A DNA stretch of 64,000 nucleotides from Brevibacillus sp. DP1.3A (lineage in GTDB: Bacteria > Bacillota > Bacilli > Brevibacillales > Brevibacillaceae): contig NZ_CP085876.1 in assembly GCF_013284245.2 (NCBI RefSeq), forward strand, positions 1,313,001 to 1,377,000, read 5' to 3'. A program made the translations under genes and the position numbers. The notes beneath the pieces were generated by a model. That model worked only from the letters and a program-made list of their open reading frames with translations, made no database searches and was not told where the DNA came from. How positions within the stretch are numbered: the stretch's first letter is position 1; the number at the start of each line of letters is the position of its first letter. Below are positions 30,198 through 36,921 of this stretch, one piece after another.

Positions 30198-31595
30198 ATG
30201 GCTGTTAAAGGCCCAGAAATACAGGAGTATCAGTACGGTTTCCACGATAAAGACGTTTCAGTATTCCGTACCAAAAAGGGTTTGACACGCGAGATCGTCG
30301 AAGAAATTTCGAAGATCAAGGATGAGCCAGCATGGATGCTGGAATTCCGCTTGAAATCGCTGGACATCTTCAACAGCATGCCGATGCCAAAATGGGGCGG
30401 CGATCTGGATGACCTCGATTTTGACAGCATCACCTACTACGTAAAGCCTTCTGAAAAGCAAGGCCGTAGCTGGGATGAGGTGCCAGAAGAAATCAAGGCA
30501 ACCTTTGACAAGCTGGGTATTCCAGAAGCAGAGCAAAAGTTCCTCGCAGGTGTATCTGCTCAGTATGAATCTGAGGTTGTATACCACAACATGCAGGAAG
30601 ACCTGGAAAAACTGGGCGTTCTCTTCTGCGACATGGATTCCGCAGTAAAACTGCACCCAGAAATCGTGAAGGAATACTTCGCGACAGTGATTCCTCCAGC
30701 AGACAACAAGTTTTCTGCATTGAACTCGGCAGTATGGTCCGGTGGTTCCTTCATTTACGTACCAAAAGGCGTAAAAGTAGAAACTCCACTGCAAGCCTAC
30801 TTCCGTATTAACTCGGAGAACATGGGTCAATTCGAGCGTACGCTGATCATCGCCGATGAAGATTCCTTCGTTCACTATGTAGAGGGCTGTACAGCTCCAA
30901 TCTACAGCACGGATTCCTTGCACTCCGCTGTCGTAGAAATCATTGTAAAAGAACGCGCTCGTTGCCGTTACACCACGATCCAAAACTGGTCCAACAACGT
31001 ATACAACCTCGTTACTAAACGTGCGGTTGCATACGCGGATGCGAACATGGAATGGATCGATGGTAACATCGGTTCCAAGCTGACGATGAAATACCCAGCT
31101 GTTATCATGAAAGGACCTCGCGCAAAAGGTACCGTTCTTTCCATTGCAGTAGCAGGAAAAGGACAACACCAAGACGCAGGTGCGAAAATGATTCACCTGG
31201 CGCCAGATTGCACATCGACGATCATTTCTAAGTCGATTTCCCGTGATGGCGGAAAAGTAACCTACCGTGGTCTGTCGCAGTTTGGACGCAAGTCGGAAGG
31301 CTCCAAGTCCAACATCAAGTGCGATACGCTGATTTTGGATAAACTGTCCACGTCCGACACGATCCCGTACAACGAGATCATGAATGACAGCATCACGCTT
31401 GAGCACGAAGCGACTGTATCCAAGGTATCTGAGGATCAACTCTTCTACCTGATGAGCCGTGGTCTGTCTGAAGCAGAAGCAACTGAAATGATCGTAATGG
31501 GCTTCATCGAGCCATTCACGAAAGAATTGCCGATGGAGTATGCGGTTGAGATGAATCGTCTCATTAAGTTCGAGATGGAAGGTAGCATCGGTTAA
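30198..31595 (+). CDS. sufB: Fe-S cluster assembly protein SufB
   Basis: A 465-residue scaffold subunit where the nascent cluster forms with SufD and SufC. It shows [73 protein letters not shown] and [21 protein letters not shown]. It is last in the operon. The prophage integrase gene begins only 60 nt downstream on the opposite strand, so the phage inserted right behind the sufB stop codon. Confidence 0.97.
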
Positions 31596-31655: not shown

Positions 31656-32810
31656 TTATTTTTGGACGTATCGCTCATATAGTGCGAGAGCATCGTCCTC
31701 AATCTTTTTCGTAACATGTAGATACGTGTCCGCTGTGACTTTCACGCTTGCGTGCCCAAGTCGCTCGGACACGTATTTTATATTTGCACCAGCTTCAAGT
31801 AAATGAACGGCATGAGTATGCCTGAGGGCGTGAGGAGATAGAACGGGAAGTTCGGCTCGCTTACAAATCTCTTTAAAGTAATCACGGACCACATTGGTAC
31901 GTAGCCAGCGTCCCTCGTGTTGGTGGAAAATAATATTGTCTTTAGTGGGTTTGTAGTTTTTATACATTAGGCAAACCTCTTTTTGGTTTATCCTATGACG
32001 TTTCATTTGTTTTATTGTGATTTCGTCTAGTTTGATAGTTCTTTCACTGCTTTTAGATTTCGGAGTTGATAAGTATGGCTGCGAATTCAAGGGATAGACG
32101 AGAGTCTTATTAACCGTTAATGTTTTTGCATCAAAGTCAATGTCATCCCAGGTCAGCGCAAGTGCTTCGCCGACCCGAAGTCCGGTACGAGCGAGCAGTG
32201 TGAAAAAAGCATAGTATTGGATGGAGTGTTGGTATTTCGCATTTTTCACTGGAGCTTTTACACAGTCCAAAAAACTTTCCAGCTGCTCTCGGGTAAAGTG
32301 AGCCACCTTGCTTGACTTGTCTACTTGCTTTGGTATCTTGATCTTTTGAACAGGATTTTCCCGTAAAACGCGAAACTCGTGGACGGAATCATTCATAGCT
32401 GTACTGAATATGCTGTGTATCCGTCTGACTGTGCCTTCGCTGTAATGACCTCGTAACTCGTTGATCCATTTTTGGTATTCATTTCGGGTGATGTCTTTCA
32501 GTCGGTATTTTCCCCACCGAGGCAGGATGTTAAGTCGGACATTCCTTTCCTGGAGAGTATAGGTGATCGGCTTCAAATTTGGCCTTTTATATATCTCCAA
32601 CCAATCGTCGAAGAAGCTATCTACCCGTTCGCCTCCGTTCTCAGCAAAACCAAAATGATTGATCTTTGATTCCTCTTCAGTTGCTGCGAGTTGTGCCTCC
32701 TTTTTGGTTCGAAATCCTCCTTTAGACTTTTCTTTTTGTTTTCCAGTTTGCCGATCAATAAACACTATCCGATATTCCCAGTTCTGACCACGTTTCCGGA
32801 AAGATGCCAT
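31656..32810 (-). CDS. Phage tyrosine integrase
   Basis: A 384-residue site-specific recombinase. The N-terminal arm-binding domain (RKRGQNWEYRIVFID, FRTKKEAQLAA) is followed by a SAM-like core-binding domain and the catalytic domain. Catalytic residues are Arg in ARTGLRVGEALALTW, HALRHTHAVHLLEAG (His-x-x-Arg), GHASVKVTADTYLHV (His and the nucleophile Tyr). The order is that of Gram-positive prophage and conjugative-element integrases. It points toward sufB, so its stop codon marks the prophage left edge. Confidence 0.96.
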   Translation of the reverse strand: MASFRKRGQNWEYRIVFIDRQTGKQKEKSKGGFRTKKEAQLAATEEESKINHFGFAENGGERVDSFFDDWLEIYKRPNLKPITYTLQERNVRLNILPRWGKYRLKDITRNEYQKWINELRGHYSEGTVRRIHSIFSTAMNDSVHEFRVLRENPVQKIKIPKQVDKSSKVAHFTREQLESFLDCVKAPVKNAKYQHSIQYYAFFTLLARTGLRVGEALALTWDDIDFDAKTLTVNKTLVYPLNSQPYLSTPKSKSSERTIKLDEITIKQMKRHRINQKEVCLMYKNYKPTKDNIIFHQHEGRWLRTNVVRDYFKEICKRAELPVLSPHALRHTHAVHLLEAGANIKYVSERLGHASVKVTADTYLHVTKKIEDDALALYERYVQK

Positions 32811-33112: not shown

Positions 33113-33907
33113 ATGGATAAGAGCATGTTATTAGAAATGCAGCCGTTTAGTTATTTTGCTTCAAAGGAACAACTAAGACAGTCCATCAATGAACGGGTAC
33201 GAAAATTAAGAAATGAGCTTACTCCATCAACTATGAGTGTCCTGGATGTATTAAGGCTACGATCAATGAAAGTTTTAGGAGTTTCGTATCTGAAAATCGA
33301 GACAATTATGGCTTTAACAAAATTAAGCCGGGCAAGCGTGGAAAGGGCTATTAGAAAGTTGGATAAGGTAGGGATTATAAAAAGAGTGACAACTAGCAGA
33401 AAAACGGGGCTCCAGGGCGCGAACATGTACTATTTTTTACCCCTTAATGACGGGGTTGAGGTGACGGGGTTGGACAAGCCTAAAAAGCCTGATACGCAAA
33501 AGGTTGAGGCGCCCAAGCAGGAAGCTAATACGGGGGTTTTTAATACTCCAAGAAGACCAAAAGAAACTAAGAAAAATAACGTAAACGGAACGCACCTCGC
33601 GAAAGACAGCTCTGTAATTCCTTCTTACATCCCGAAAGAATTTGCTAAGCTGATCCAACAAGGATTTTCATGTGGAAGAGTAATCAAACAGTTCTGGGGA
33701 AAGGTGGTGATGTTTAAAAACGTTTCAGGATGGACTCGTAACGAAAACGTGTTGCCAGTTGCTGCTGACGCATGGGAATACACCAAGCACGAATACAAGA
33801 GGGATAAAAAAGAGTGGGAACTTGATCGATTCCTAAAATGTTTCTATGGAACGATGAAGCGGATCGAAGAGAAGAGAGTGGAGGAGTACGCAGCAATTTG
33901 GACGTAA
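33113..33907 (+). CDS. Winged-helix phage protein (regulatory or replication-like)
   Basis: A 264-residue protein. Residues about 25-105 form a winged helix-turn-helix (ITMSVLDVLRLRSMKVLGVS-like segment, then ALTKLSRASVERAIRKLDKVGIIKR with a wing to about 105). The middle (about 110-165) is Pro/Lys-rich and probably flexible. The C-terminal part (about 170-264) is Trp- and Lys-rich. Similar HTH proteins occur on Bacillus plasmids and phages, usually unassigned. GGAGAT lies upstream of ATG 33113. Function unknown; DNA binding is likely. Confidence 0.7.
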   Translation: MDKSMLLEMQPFSYFASKEQLRQSINERVRKLRNELTPSTMSVLDVLRLRSMKVLGVSYLKIETIMALTKLSRASVERAIRKLDKVGIIKRVTTSRKTGLQGANMYYFLPLNDGVEVTGLDKPKKPDTQKVEAPKQEANTGVFNTPRRPKETKKNNVNGTHLAKDSSVIPSYIPKEFAKLIQQGFSCGRVIKQFWGKVVMFKNVSGWTRNENVLPVAADAWEYTKHEYKRDKKEWELDRFLKCFYGTMKRIEEKRVEEYAAIWT

Positions 33908-34232: not shown

Positions 34233-35489
34233 ATGAGCGGTTCAATTGAAGAGTTAAACAGAAAAGAGTTTGGAGCTGCTTTAAAAACGCTCCGTGAAAA
34301 AGCACGCATTAATGATGCACGAGTCAGCCAAGAGAAGTTAGCAGAGCTCCTGGATGTATCTAGGATAACAATAGTCAATACGGAGAAGGGACAAAACGTT
34401 CCCAAGGCTTCGTTTGTTGAAAAAGCATACCATTTGTTTCAAAGTGGCGAATTGGTCATGAGGTATGTGCTAATACAGCAAGATAAGAAAGAAGTATCTC
34501 ACCTAGCAATGAAAATTCAGCCACATGACTATAAGCTCGCTATTCGGGTAATTCAAATGATTATGCGGGAATCGTTTAGTCAAGGGGATCTACATGGTGT
34601 GATTACAAATCTCTTTCGCTTAATCCTGTGGGACATCGAGGAGAAGGGAAAGACGAGTAGACGAAAAATACAATATCTAACTCAGGCGTTTATAAATTAT
34701 GATCCTGAACACAACGGATTCTTAGATTTGCTTGACGAGTTGTATCACATTTCGAAAAAACGGAAAAACTTCGATGCGTTTCTTTCTATTACGGAGGCGA
34801 TCACCCAAGAAATAAAGTTAGATGATCGGCGTTTATCGCAGTTATTCTATCAGGAAGCTACGGCTTTCTATATTAAAGGTCAACACGATAAAGCCTATAG
34901 GCTGTCTAATAGAGCGATAGAAGCAATGGCAGGGGTAGTTTACCAGCACACAGCGCACATCTACCACAGACATTCGCTTATATGTATGCAGCTTGCATTT
35001 TACGATGAGGCACTGGAACATGCAAAGGTTTGTTTGGAGATGGCACCAAAAGCGTCTGAACTGCACAAATTAGTAAAACAAGGCATGGCACGAATGTACT
35101 ACATGAATCAAAATTTTGATGAGGCTAAAGAGCTCTGGGACGAATTATTTAAGACAATGGGTAAAAATGATATCAGAAAAGTGCATTCGCTTAATGACAT
35201 CATTTTTATGGAAATCAGATTAGGGCATTTCGACAAAGCGGACAAGCTCATTGACGAATGTGACAGACTATTGCAACTTGCAGAAAAAGAAGAATGGTCT
35301 TTCTTCCAAGCAGAAAAGCTATTACTGTTTCGCAACAAAGTTCTGTATCACGCACAAAAAACAGGAGATTTTTTTCACAAAGATGTTTCTGACATGCTGG
35401 GGGAATTGAAAGTAAGCTATCTAAAAGATGAATTTGAGCTTACGAAAAACTTTGTCCTCGATAAGGCATTTTTGTCAGCTAAAATGTAA
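34233..35489 (+). CDS. RRNPP-type peptide-responsive regulator (HTH + TPR), arbitrium/Rap-like
   Basis: A 418-residue protein. Residues about 10-66 are an XRE helix-turn-helix (EFGAALKTLREKA, VSQEKLAELLDVSRITIVNTE). The rest is all-helical with tetratricopeptide-like repeats, for example YQEATAFYIKGQHDKAYRLS, HRHSLICMQLAFYDEALEHA, MARMYYMNQNFDEAKELWDE and IIFMEIRLGHFDKADKLIDE. This is the layout of NprR, PlcR and AimR receptors that bind small imported peptides. A pre-peptide gene follows after 26 nt. ATG 34233 follows AAAGGGGAG; the upstream frame to 34146 has no RBS. It probably controls the prophage switch. Family membership is well supported; the regulatory outcome is inference. Confidence 0.85.
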   Translation: MSGSIEELNRKEFGAALKTLREKARINDARVSQEKLAELLDVSRITIVNTEKGQNVPKASFVEKAYHLFQSGELVMRYVLIQQDKKEVSHLAMKIQPHDYKLAIRVIQMIMRESFSQGDLHGVITNLFRLILWDIEEKGKTSRRKIQYLTQAFINYDPEHNGFLDLLDELYHISKKRKNFDAFLSITEAITQEIKLDDRRLSQLFYQEATAFYIKGQHDKAYRLSNRAIEAMAGVVYQHTAHIYHRHSLICMQLAFYDEALEHAKVCLEMAPKASELHKLVKQGMARMYYMNQNFDEAKELWDELFKTMGKNDIRKVHSLNDIIFMEIRLGHFDKADKLIDECDRLLQLAEKEEWSFFQAEKLLLFRNKVLYHAQKTGDFFHKDVSDMLGELKVSYLKDEFELTKNFVLDKAFLSAKM

Positions 35490-35515
35490 TTATCACGACA
35501 AAGGAGGCATCATCT

Positions 35516-35677
35516 ATGAAGAAAGTATTGACTAGTGCTTTTGCTGCAATTTTGATTGGGGTTATCTCATCTGGGTCCACAGCGTTAGCTGGTCCACCAG
35601 AGGGGAACGGGCTTGTCGCTCCGTTTCCAACGAAACCGCCAGTCATCGTGTATGGTCCGCCAGAAGGTAACGGATAA
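35516..35677 (+). CDS. Secreted signalling pre-peptide with duplicated GPPEGNG (Phr/AimP-like)
   Basis: A 53-residue frame with a near-perfect RBS (AAAGGAGG, 35500-35507). Residues 1-25 are a Sec signal peptide: MKK, a hydrophobic core, and the signal-peptidase site TALA. Immediately after it comes GPPEGNG (26-32), then a Pro-rich linker LVAPFPTKPPVIVY, then a second GPPEGNG at the exact C-terminus (47-53). The two copies differ in four codons, all synonymous. C-terminal 5-7-residue pheromones are the rule for Phr, NprX and AimP. It is downstream of its presumed receptor gene, as in aimR-aimP. The mature form is inferred. Confidence 0.8.
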   Translation: MKKVLTSAFAAILIGVISSGSTALAGPPEGNGLVAPFPTKPPVIVYGPPEGNG

Positions 35678-35763
35678 ATAACGACTGTAAAATGTAAAGT
35701 GGTAACAGTTGTTTGTTAAAATTTCTTTGATCGCTTTACAGAAATTTTGGAAATAATGTCATA

Positions 35764-35802
35764 AAATAGTGGTAGGGAGTTGTCCCTGTCACTATTTTTT
35801 TG
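35764..35802 (+). terminator. Intrinsic terminator of the regulator-peptide unit
   Basis: AAATAGTG (35764-35771) pairs with CACTATTT (35790-35797), with an inner GGGA/TCCC helix and a following T-run. The 86 nt from the peptide stop to this hairpin could form a short noncoding tail. Confidence 0.85.
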
Positions 35803-35886
35803 TTCTAGGACTGGAAACAGTTGCAAAATGTACAAGATACTCATACAATAAATAAGAACCTATGTTCGATTCAAGGGGGAGAAAGT

Positions 35887-36042
35887 GTGATCACAGTTAA
35901 GTCAACAAAATGGACTCCAGAACTGGTAGGGATTTTACATAATCTATTGAAAGAGGACCATGGCGAAGCTCTCCAAAATATCGAAGACATCGTTTCGAAA
36001 GAAAATCCAAATAAAAGAAAGAACGACCAGTCTCCCCGTTGA
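35887..36042 (+). CDS. Small hypothetical phage protein
   Basis: A 51-residue acidic, helical protein starting at GTG 35887 after AAGGGGGAGAAA. It has VKSTKWTPELVGILHNLLKE and ends in a basic patch. The frame is open to 35821, but without an RBS. It lies between the peptide operon terminator and the convergent repressor gene, so it may be a target of the peptide-controlled switch. No family recognised. Confidence 0.55.
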   Translation: MITVKSTKWTPELVGILHNLLKEDHGEALQNIEDIVSKENPNKRKNDQSPR

Positions 36043-36648: not shown

Positions 36649-36921
36649 ATGAAAAATAACATCAGGATTTTACGGAGAAGTCCAGAGTATGATCTATCTC
36701 AAGAAGAACTAGCAATTGCCCTTGGAACAACAAGGGACAGGATCAGCGCTATTGAGAATGGGGCTATCCCTGGCGGAAAATTGATGATTAAGATTTGCAT
36801 CTTTTTCAATCGTGATATACGCGATATTTTTTTTACCGAGGATGTTGTATGCACAATACAAAAGGTTAAAAAAAAACGCCAAAAACACGAGCCAAAAAAA
36901 GCTATTAGAAGTGCAGTATGA
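36649..36921 (+). CDS. Cro-like XRE family regulator
   Basis: A 90-residue protein starting at ATG 36649 after GGGAGGTG. The HTH is NIRILRRSPEYDLSQEELA, then GTTRDRISAIENGAIPGG, with the IFFNRDIRDIF helix of the XRE family; the tail is Lys-rich. First gene of the rightward early operon, opposite the CI-like repressor. Confidence 0.85.
   Translation: MKNNIRILRRSPEYDLSQEELAIALGTTRDRISAIENGAIPGGKLMIKICIFFNRDIRDIFFTEDVVCTIQKVKKKRQKHEPKKAIRSAV

Follow-up and report, generated by a model that had tools for sequence, protein, structure and literature searches.

Genomic context of the locus

In the genome of Brevibacillus sp. DP1.3A, we analysed a stretch of 64,000 nt (hereafter the window, to which positions refer) that contains a gene for an HTH-TPR receptor followed by a gene for a short, Sec-like pre-peptide. 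Downstream of this pair lie a long-spaced inverted repeat (hereafter the dyad), a terminator and a small gene with its own promoter and a LexA-type box, which neighbours the genes for a CI-like and a Cro-like protein (Table 1). A first-pass annotation of the sequence had placed the pair between the integrase and the CI/Cro genes, and this arrangement was confirmed.

The locus is part of a prophage. The second copy of the attachment repeat is found at 1384853-1384872 of the genome (contig G000:C1), and the two repeats flank about 40.3 kb. By eye, both copies are followed by sequence encoding an identical SufB ending, so that the prophage, which enters at the 3' end of sufB, would restore this end. 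Genes for terminase, portal, head, tail sheath, tape measure and baseplate proteins are present, as in a contractile-tail prophage of about 40 kb, which looks intact from its sequence. Directly upstream of the receptor gene, we observed a gene for a replication-initiation-like HTH protein (phrog_1835, 33113-33907), which has 87-88% identity in three related proviruses.

Table 1. Features of the locus (positions within the window)
Feature	Position	Strand	Basis or remark
attL, 20-bp repeat in 3' end of sufB	31563-31582	+	partner copy 71853-71872 (window scale), outside the window
Tyrosine integrase	31656-32810	-	Pfam, PHROGs
HTH-TPR receptor, 418 aa	34233-35489	+	RRNPP-type by fold; Pfam, AF2, structure comparison, 12 further receptors
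Sec-like pre-peptide, 53 aa	35516-35677	+	GPPEGNG twice, residues 26-32 and 47-53
First signal copy	35591-35611	+	directly after ALA signal-peptidase motif
Second signal copy	35654-35674	+	ends at last codon
Long-spaced inverted repeat TGTAAAGTG...CGCTTTACA	35693-35740		proposed receptor operator
Intrinsic terminator	35763-35798		strong, 16-bp stem, T run; possibly bidirectional
Sigma-A-like promoter of small gene, TTGCAA-17-TACAAT	35821-35849	+	9 of 12 consensus bases
LexA-type (SOS) box GAACCTATGTTCG	35856-35868		at presumed transcription start
Small protein, 51 aa, GTG start	35887-36042	+	convergent with CI; proposed output gene, perhaps antirepressor
CI-like Xre repressor, 124 aa	36055-36429	-	HTH only, no peptidase domain (Pfam)
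Cro-like HTH protein	36649-36921	+	Pfam

The receptor

Members of the RRNPP(A) family are defined by a TPR receptor of 250-500 aa, an N-terminal HTH (in all but Rap) and an adjacent gene for a Sec pro-peptide of 10-100 aa. The receptor studied here lies within this size range and has an N-terminal HTH_31 domain (E 9e-08, 32.8 bits against a Pfam cut-off of 27 bits); TPR_12 and TPR_2 scored just under the Pfam cut-offs. The AF2 model, which was computed from an alignment of eight receptors, is all-helical (mean pLDDT 91.8, pTM 0.81). When this model was compared to known structures with VIA-align, the best matches were Rap of pLS20 (Z 19.0), RapF, RapI, RapH and phage Raps; NprR, AimR and PlcR ranked lower among the same best 50. 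Two AimR structures aligned with Z 15.4 (6s7i_B, 352 aligned residues, rmsd 16.7) and Z 14.8 (6hp3_A, 349 aligned residues, rmsd 18.0), scores that other TPR proteins also reach. Since unrelated TPR proteins, for example Rpn6 and LGN, reach scores similar to those of the RRNPP structures, the comparison shows an RRNPP-like fold but does not by itself establish membership.

On sequence, we rejected AimR as an identity for the receptor. A comparison of 13 receptors (see below) with AimR of SPbeta and phi3T gave an hhalign probability of 0.3%, and a HMMER profile of the 13 receptors did not report either of these two AimRs at E 100. AimR is absent among the best 60 of the 181 PDB rows matched by the receptor, and PHROGs gave it no AimR label.

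Homologous receptors and their pre-peptides

Matches to the receptor were found in 10 of 149 related genomes (E 0.001). Searches in 39 genomes of the order and 398 genomes of the class gave 14 (E 1e-8, several in the HTH part only) and 8 (E 1e-20, all within the window's own family), respectively. Among IMG/VR contigs, five of 48-58 kb carry full-length receptors (L034-L038) and one matched in the HTH part only (L039). In 50,697 phage records, there was no match to this receptor or to that of locus L014; the receptor of L006 matched 22 records, with coverage of at most 25% among the matches listed (20 of 22). The L014 and L006 receptors had no match in the IMG/VR contigs, where a search with the pre-peptide returned only an already known contig. 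A receptor pattern gave 10 matches in the genome contigs, none of them a relative. A search with the integrase resulted in 36 loci; within the stretches fetched, a full-length match to the receptor was obtained for one of them only, L091 (the L036 contig).

We compared 13 receptors with an HTH: that of the window and those of L034, L002, L035, L003, L037, L004, L005, L011, L006, L133, L007 and L014. The 12 further receptors have 20-94% identity in the alignment of all 13. Loci L036 and L038, which share the pre-peptides of L003 and L005, respectively, were not added to this count. Left out of the counts were matches in the HTH part (L009, L010, L023-L025, L027, L028, L033 and L039), L026, which belongs to a different family, and L143-L148.

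The pre-peptide frame of the window starts 26 nt past the receptor stop, with a ribosome-binding site AAGGAGG 8 nt from the ATG; the 26-nt gap and a near-perfect ribosome-binding site had been described in the first-pass annotation. Judged from its sequence, the frame begins with a predicted signal peptide, which has K-K at its start, then a hydrophobic core, and ALA preceding the presumed cleavage site. The annotation had proposed GPPEGNG at the exact C-terminus as the signal and had missed a second, identical copy directly after ALA. The layout reads MKKVLTSAFAAILIGVISSGSTALA, GPPEGNG, LVAPFPTKPPVIVY, GPPEGNG, where the presumed signal-peptidase cut lies after ALA, between MKKVLTSAFAAILIGVISSGSTALA and the first copy. 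The pre-peptide has no family match above the cut-offs of Pfam, NCBIfam and PHROGs; NCBIfam Phr_nterm gave a hint only (E 0.095, 13.2 bits against a cut-off of 25), and AF2 on the pre-peptide alignment was uninformative (pLDDT 61.3).

A Sec-like short frame follows each of the 13 receptors, window included, at a distance of -4 to +47 nt. The first-pass annotation had suggested looking for homologous receptors with flanking small frames and held that their absence would speak against the pair; instead, since every receptor has a comparable pre-peptide, the pairing is not due to chance, and receptor and pre-peptide are by sequence a conserved two-gene unit. In 11 of the 13 pre-peptides the motif is doubled: GPPEGNG (window, L034), GPPEND (L002, L035), GPPEW (L003, L037, L004), GPPDGW (L005, L011), GPGETS (L133) and GPPIHP (L014, in which the first copy begins one residue later than the cut). 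Single motifs are found in L006 (GPGETS, at the C-terminus only) and L007 (GPVEPNV, only after the signal-peptidase motif).

As the copies were found by being identical, the informative number is that of the codon differences between them. The two codons are different in 41 of the 65 pairs from the 11 doubled precursors (in 31 of 53 for nine of these precursors), and always synonymously so. Some changes are shared among related phages and thus do not represent 41 separate events. This synonymous drift argues against a recent DNA duplication, and both copies look as if they are held by selection. In 10 of these 11 precursors, moreover, the first copy begins at the signal-peptidase motif and the second runs up to the stop codon. 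The mature peptide is suggested by the longest shared stretch, which extends from the presumed cut to the stop.

In the receptor tree, the GPPEGNG, GPPEND, GPPDGW and GPPEW groups correspond to four supported receptor clades; long branches make the placement of L006, L133, L007 and L014 uncertain. The predicted peptide type changes with the receptor lineage. Because the downstream motifs of homologous receptors are mostly doubled and change with the receptor, the earlier proposal of an RRNPP-type receptor with a secreted pre-peptide and GPPEGNG as its signal is well supported by sequence.

Further observations concern the distribution of such pairs. Nine precursors, including that of the window (35612-35623), have Ala-Pro or Ser-Pro after the first copy (0 or 2 residues on), which is perhaps a processing mark; L133 and L014 differ at this position. 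Two lineages, GPPEND and GPPDGW, occur together in one genome (G002). Another (G004) has a GPPEW module and, on contig C77 (L047, 7234-11612), a second, distant receptor with 24% identity to that of the window and a doubled GPPIHP; this receptor adjoins a serine-recombinase-like frame and is found without dyad or box. Such pairs were also noted at L008 2464-2571, L012 2449-2556 and L013 2461-2568, where three chromosomal relatives of the TPR part, which by eye have no HTH, each precede by 12 nt a Sec-like pre-peptide with GPVEPNV or GPVEPDV as its presumed first mature residues. The B. marinus homologue (L007; L088, NZ_CP034542.1 99411-100688) is located on a plasmid of 101 kb that also has genes resembling those for secretion and transfer, and there it adjoins a CI-like gene and a small frame and has its own matched dyad. 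Since the L007 pre-peptide also has GPVEPNV, this plasmid and the chromosome may share a signal.

A long-spaced dyad as proposed operator

Behind the pre-peptide gene, we found a conserved inverted repeat, TGTAAAGTG...CACTTTACA, which we propose as the operator of the receptor. It was compared at 11 loci, where L036, L038, L040, L041, L043, L045 and L046 stand for L003, L005, L002, L011, L004, L006 and L007, respectively. The outer width is 47-49 bp in all 11 loci, with 35-37 bp between the 6-mers, and the arms pair at 8-9 of 10 positions in 10 loci and weakly, at 6 of 10, in L006. Seven arm pairs are distinct. Arm position 7 is complementary in all seven (G-C in four, A-T in two and C-G in one), and positions 1-9 are complementary in four to seven of them, compared to none and one for the flanking positions. 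A symmetric change of the arms, TGTAAACTG/CAGTTTACA, accompanies both GPPEND receptors, whatever the neighbouring CI; the receptor HTH reads SRQAIVK with GPPEND and SRQTIAN with GPPEW and GPPDGW. No dyad was found behind the distant L014 receptor.

The window dyad pattern occurs once in the 64 kb (0.01 expected) and this is its sole match in the whole genome. Taken alone, the window dyad is unremarkable by free search, as its best score was reached by 32 of 60 shuffles, which counts against an operator. A looser pattern is not specific genome-wide: in 39 genomes, it gave 12 sites in nine genomes, six of them at modules, compared to 10 sites in nine genomes for the reversed control.

As a prospective test, we scanned the IMG/VR contigs with the operator only, using a pattern that was drawn from known loci and that by design misses L034 and L038. 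Ten contigs were found, of which four have a receptor and six have no receptor match. Three of the four are known proviruses (L035, L037 and L036; the stretch retrieved for L036 stops short of the receptor), and the fourth, L133, is new. The L133 receptor has 33-42% identity to the eight receptors of the earlier alignment and is followed by the doubled GPGETS pre-peptide, a 48-bp dyad, a LexA-type box 116 bp behind it, a 46-aa gene and CI-like and Cro-like genes; a frame of this locus was named serine-recombinase-like by eye. We consider the predicted signal, the receptor type and the candidate operator to be well supported by sequence.

The small gene and the immunity region

The LexA-type box, GAACNNNNGTTYG, was detected in 9 of the 11 loci, with the arms kept and the four central bases varying, and also in L133; it is missing at L006, L007 and L014. 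It lies 114-116 bp behind the dyad in eight loci and 97 bp behind it in L035, which has a deletion in the small-gene promoter. The distance of about 115 bp between dyad and box, with the terminator in between, counts against a direct link of the dyad to the small gene. The box pattern is not over-represented in the window (1 match, 1.12 expected), and in the genome there were 28 among the matches listed compared to 83 for the reversed pattern. Four boxes of this type lie 77-300 nt upstream of the lexA gene in the same genome, one of them exact, GAACATATGTTC, and three imperfect; for recA, there is a single, imperfect box. Control of the small gene by LexA is likely, judged from the box. Some other matches of the box pattern precede frames that are YolD-like by eye.

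The 51-aa small protein has no convincing family match. Its sequence type tracks the type of CI and not that of the peptide: GPPEND was seen with both type A (L035) and type B (L040), as was GPPEW (type A in L036 and L043, type B in L037). As the small gene and CI are neighbours, their matching types could be due to linkage alone. Different combinations of the immunity region (small gene and CI, types A and B) and the receptor-peptide module are observed in L040, L035, L036 and L037, as if the two were exchanged independently between phages. Since CI has no Pfam peptidase domain, a small protein under SOS control would be a sensible route to induction.

By eye, the small proteins resemble the C-terminal helices of the CI proteins, which had suggested mimicry of the CI tail, as in a SinI-like antirepressor. 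For five pairs of small protein and CI tail, the sum of all 25 scores exceeds 299 of 300 shuffles, which reflects a general likeness. Own pairs did not stand out: 20 of 120 pairings gave an equal or higher score, the own-pair sum was reached by 49 of 1000 shuffles, and single tests against the own CI in four lineages (2000 shuffles) gave p values of 0.22, 0.13, 0.03 and 0.21. Mimicry is speculation only.

Interpretation of the module

We conclude that the locus is probably a prophage-borne quorum-sensing module of RRNPP type, with an arbitrium-like layout and a receptor that is not AimR by sequence. The first-pass annotation had called the pair arbitrium-like. This stands for the layout, with receptor, pre-peptide, long-spaced dyad, small gene and repressor, and fails for the receptor sequence, where hhalign gave 0.3%.

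In the mechanism that we propose, the pre-peptide would leave the cell by Sec, signal peptidase I would free the N-terminus of the first copy, the stop codon would set the C-terminus of the second, and further cuts would release GPPEGNG, which the host oligopeptide permease could import. A receptor dimer would bind the dyad through its HTH domains, and the peptide in the TPR groove would change this binding. The output would most likely reach the SOS-controlled 51-aa gene, directly or by readthrough, such that prophage density as well as DNA damage would be sensed before repression by the CI-like protein is lifted. Release, import and binding of the peptide and the direction of regulation are thereby what we infer, and it is the position of the module that suggests a role in lysis-lysogeny.

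The pair might also be genuine and have another target, such as host physiology (e.g. sporulation or competence) or its own expression, which would make it a cargo locus near CI/Cro. We consider this unlikely, yet it is consistent with several observations. Phage-borne Rap-Phr pairs are thought to act on host sporulation or competence (available part of PMC10075063), HTH-less chromosomal relatives with a GPVEP pre-peptide occur in Brevibacillaceae, and the terminator between dyad and small gene could merely end the receptor operon. However, the module is kept between a recombinase and a CI-like gene in tyrosine- and serine-recombinase elements (the latter in L006 and L133) alike. In addition, as the dyad pattern matches only once in window and genome, a wide host regulon through this operator is unlikely.

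Rather improbable is that the doubled peptide reports the cell's own lysogeny, as in superinfection control, and not the number of neighbours. The phage lineages do have their own peptides, and G002 carries two, but the Sec-like start in all 13 HTH-receptor loci, as judged from sequence, points to an extracellular stage. That the 53-aa frame is an unrelated small secreted phage protein beside an orphan Xre-TPR regulator would fit its failure to match a family above the cut-offs, but is hardly credible given the pairing in 13 of 13 loci, the motif doubled despite codon drift and its change with the receptor clade.

Returning to the quorum-sensing module, we tentatively extend it to a 'GP-peptide' family specific to Brevibacillaceae, a proposal that is possible rather than probable. 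The family would span prophages, elements that carry a recombinase, a plasmid and the chromosome, all with related signals; within prophages, LexA and the receptor, the latter at an operator about four helical turns wide, would jointly control a small antirepressor of a CI without peptidase, forming a logic gate of quorum and DNA damage.

With the quorum-sensing module, chemical communication between phages would extend, in Brevibacillus phages, to a receptor family that is unrelated to AimR by sequence, and the layout suggests a way for quorum and SOS inputs to converge on a single small gene next to the repressor. As the doubled motif points to the mature peptide from the sequence, with its start set by signal peptidase and its end by the stop codon, the peptides are ready for synthesis and testing. 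The seven peptide types and their receptors are a ready panel for studies of specificity.

Comparison with known systems

The peptide switches the receptor off in AimR and in the tested AloR. The AimR operator is described as two 6-bp boxes 25 bp apart, 37 bp in all (PMC6458997). Compared to this, the dyad of the window family, with 47-49 bp and a longer spacer (35-37 bp), is about 11 bp or one helical turn wider. The module resembles arbitrium (AimR-AimP-AimX of SPbeta and phi3T) in its phage HTH-TPR receptor, Sec pre-peptide, long-spaced inverted repeat and small gene; the annotated AimX of phi3T has 51 aa, as does the small protein of the window. It differs in that there is no kinship of sequence profiles (hhalign 0.3%), the HTH is recognised by Pfam, the signal is encoded twice, a LexA-type box and a CI gene are neighbours, the host belongs to another genus and the phage has a contractile tail.

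The mobile element ICEBs1, with RapI-PhrI, ImmR and ImmA, couples the release of an Xre repressor to a peptide signal and to SOS. At the locus described here, an ImmA-like protease was not noticed beside CI; a LexA-type box and an unrelated small protein are found instead.

Rap proteins are the best structural matches of the receptor, yet they have no HTH, as stated in the available part of PMC9765709, whereas the receptor of the window does. Pro-peptides with at least two identical pheromones have been described for AimR, NprR, Rap and PlcR systems (PMC9765709, PMC11343458, as far as available). Unlike in Rap-Phr and NprR-NprX, the doubled signals of the window family have one copy at the signal-peptidase motif and one at the stop, in 10 of 11 precursors.

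The AloR-AloP systems of Paenibacillus are also similar, as judged from the published description, in that they have an HTH-TPR receptor and a short pre-peptide. In the part of PMC7425212 available to us, the tested receptor activates the next gene, a Spo0E-like gene, and the peptide, SHGRGG for AloP13, shuts it off. A distantly similar HTH-TPR receptor (hhalign probability 95%) occurs in another genus of the window's family (L026), where the pre-peptide has no GP motif. This distant receptor family (L026 1495-2769; NZ_CP007807.1 9914-11098) has relatives on plasmids of B. laterosporus, B. halotolerans and Paenibacillus. Cluster 8 of RRNPP_detector comprises a plasmid of B. laterosporus LMG 15441 (available part of PMC10075063); the LMG 15441 plasmid NZ_CP007807 holds an L026-like receptor and is not matched by the receptor of the window.

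A receptor family with GP peptides is not described in the available parts of PMC10075063 and PMC7425212, and six of the peptide strings, searched as whole words in the literature, returned no paper.
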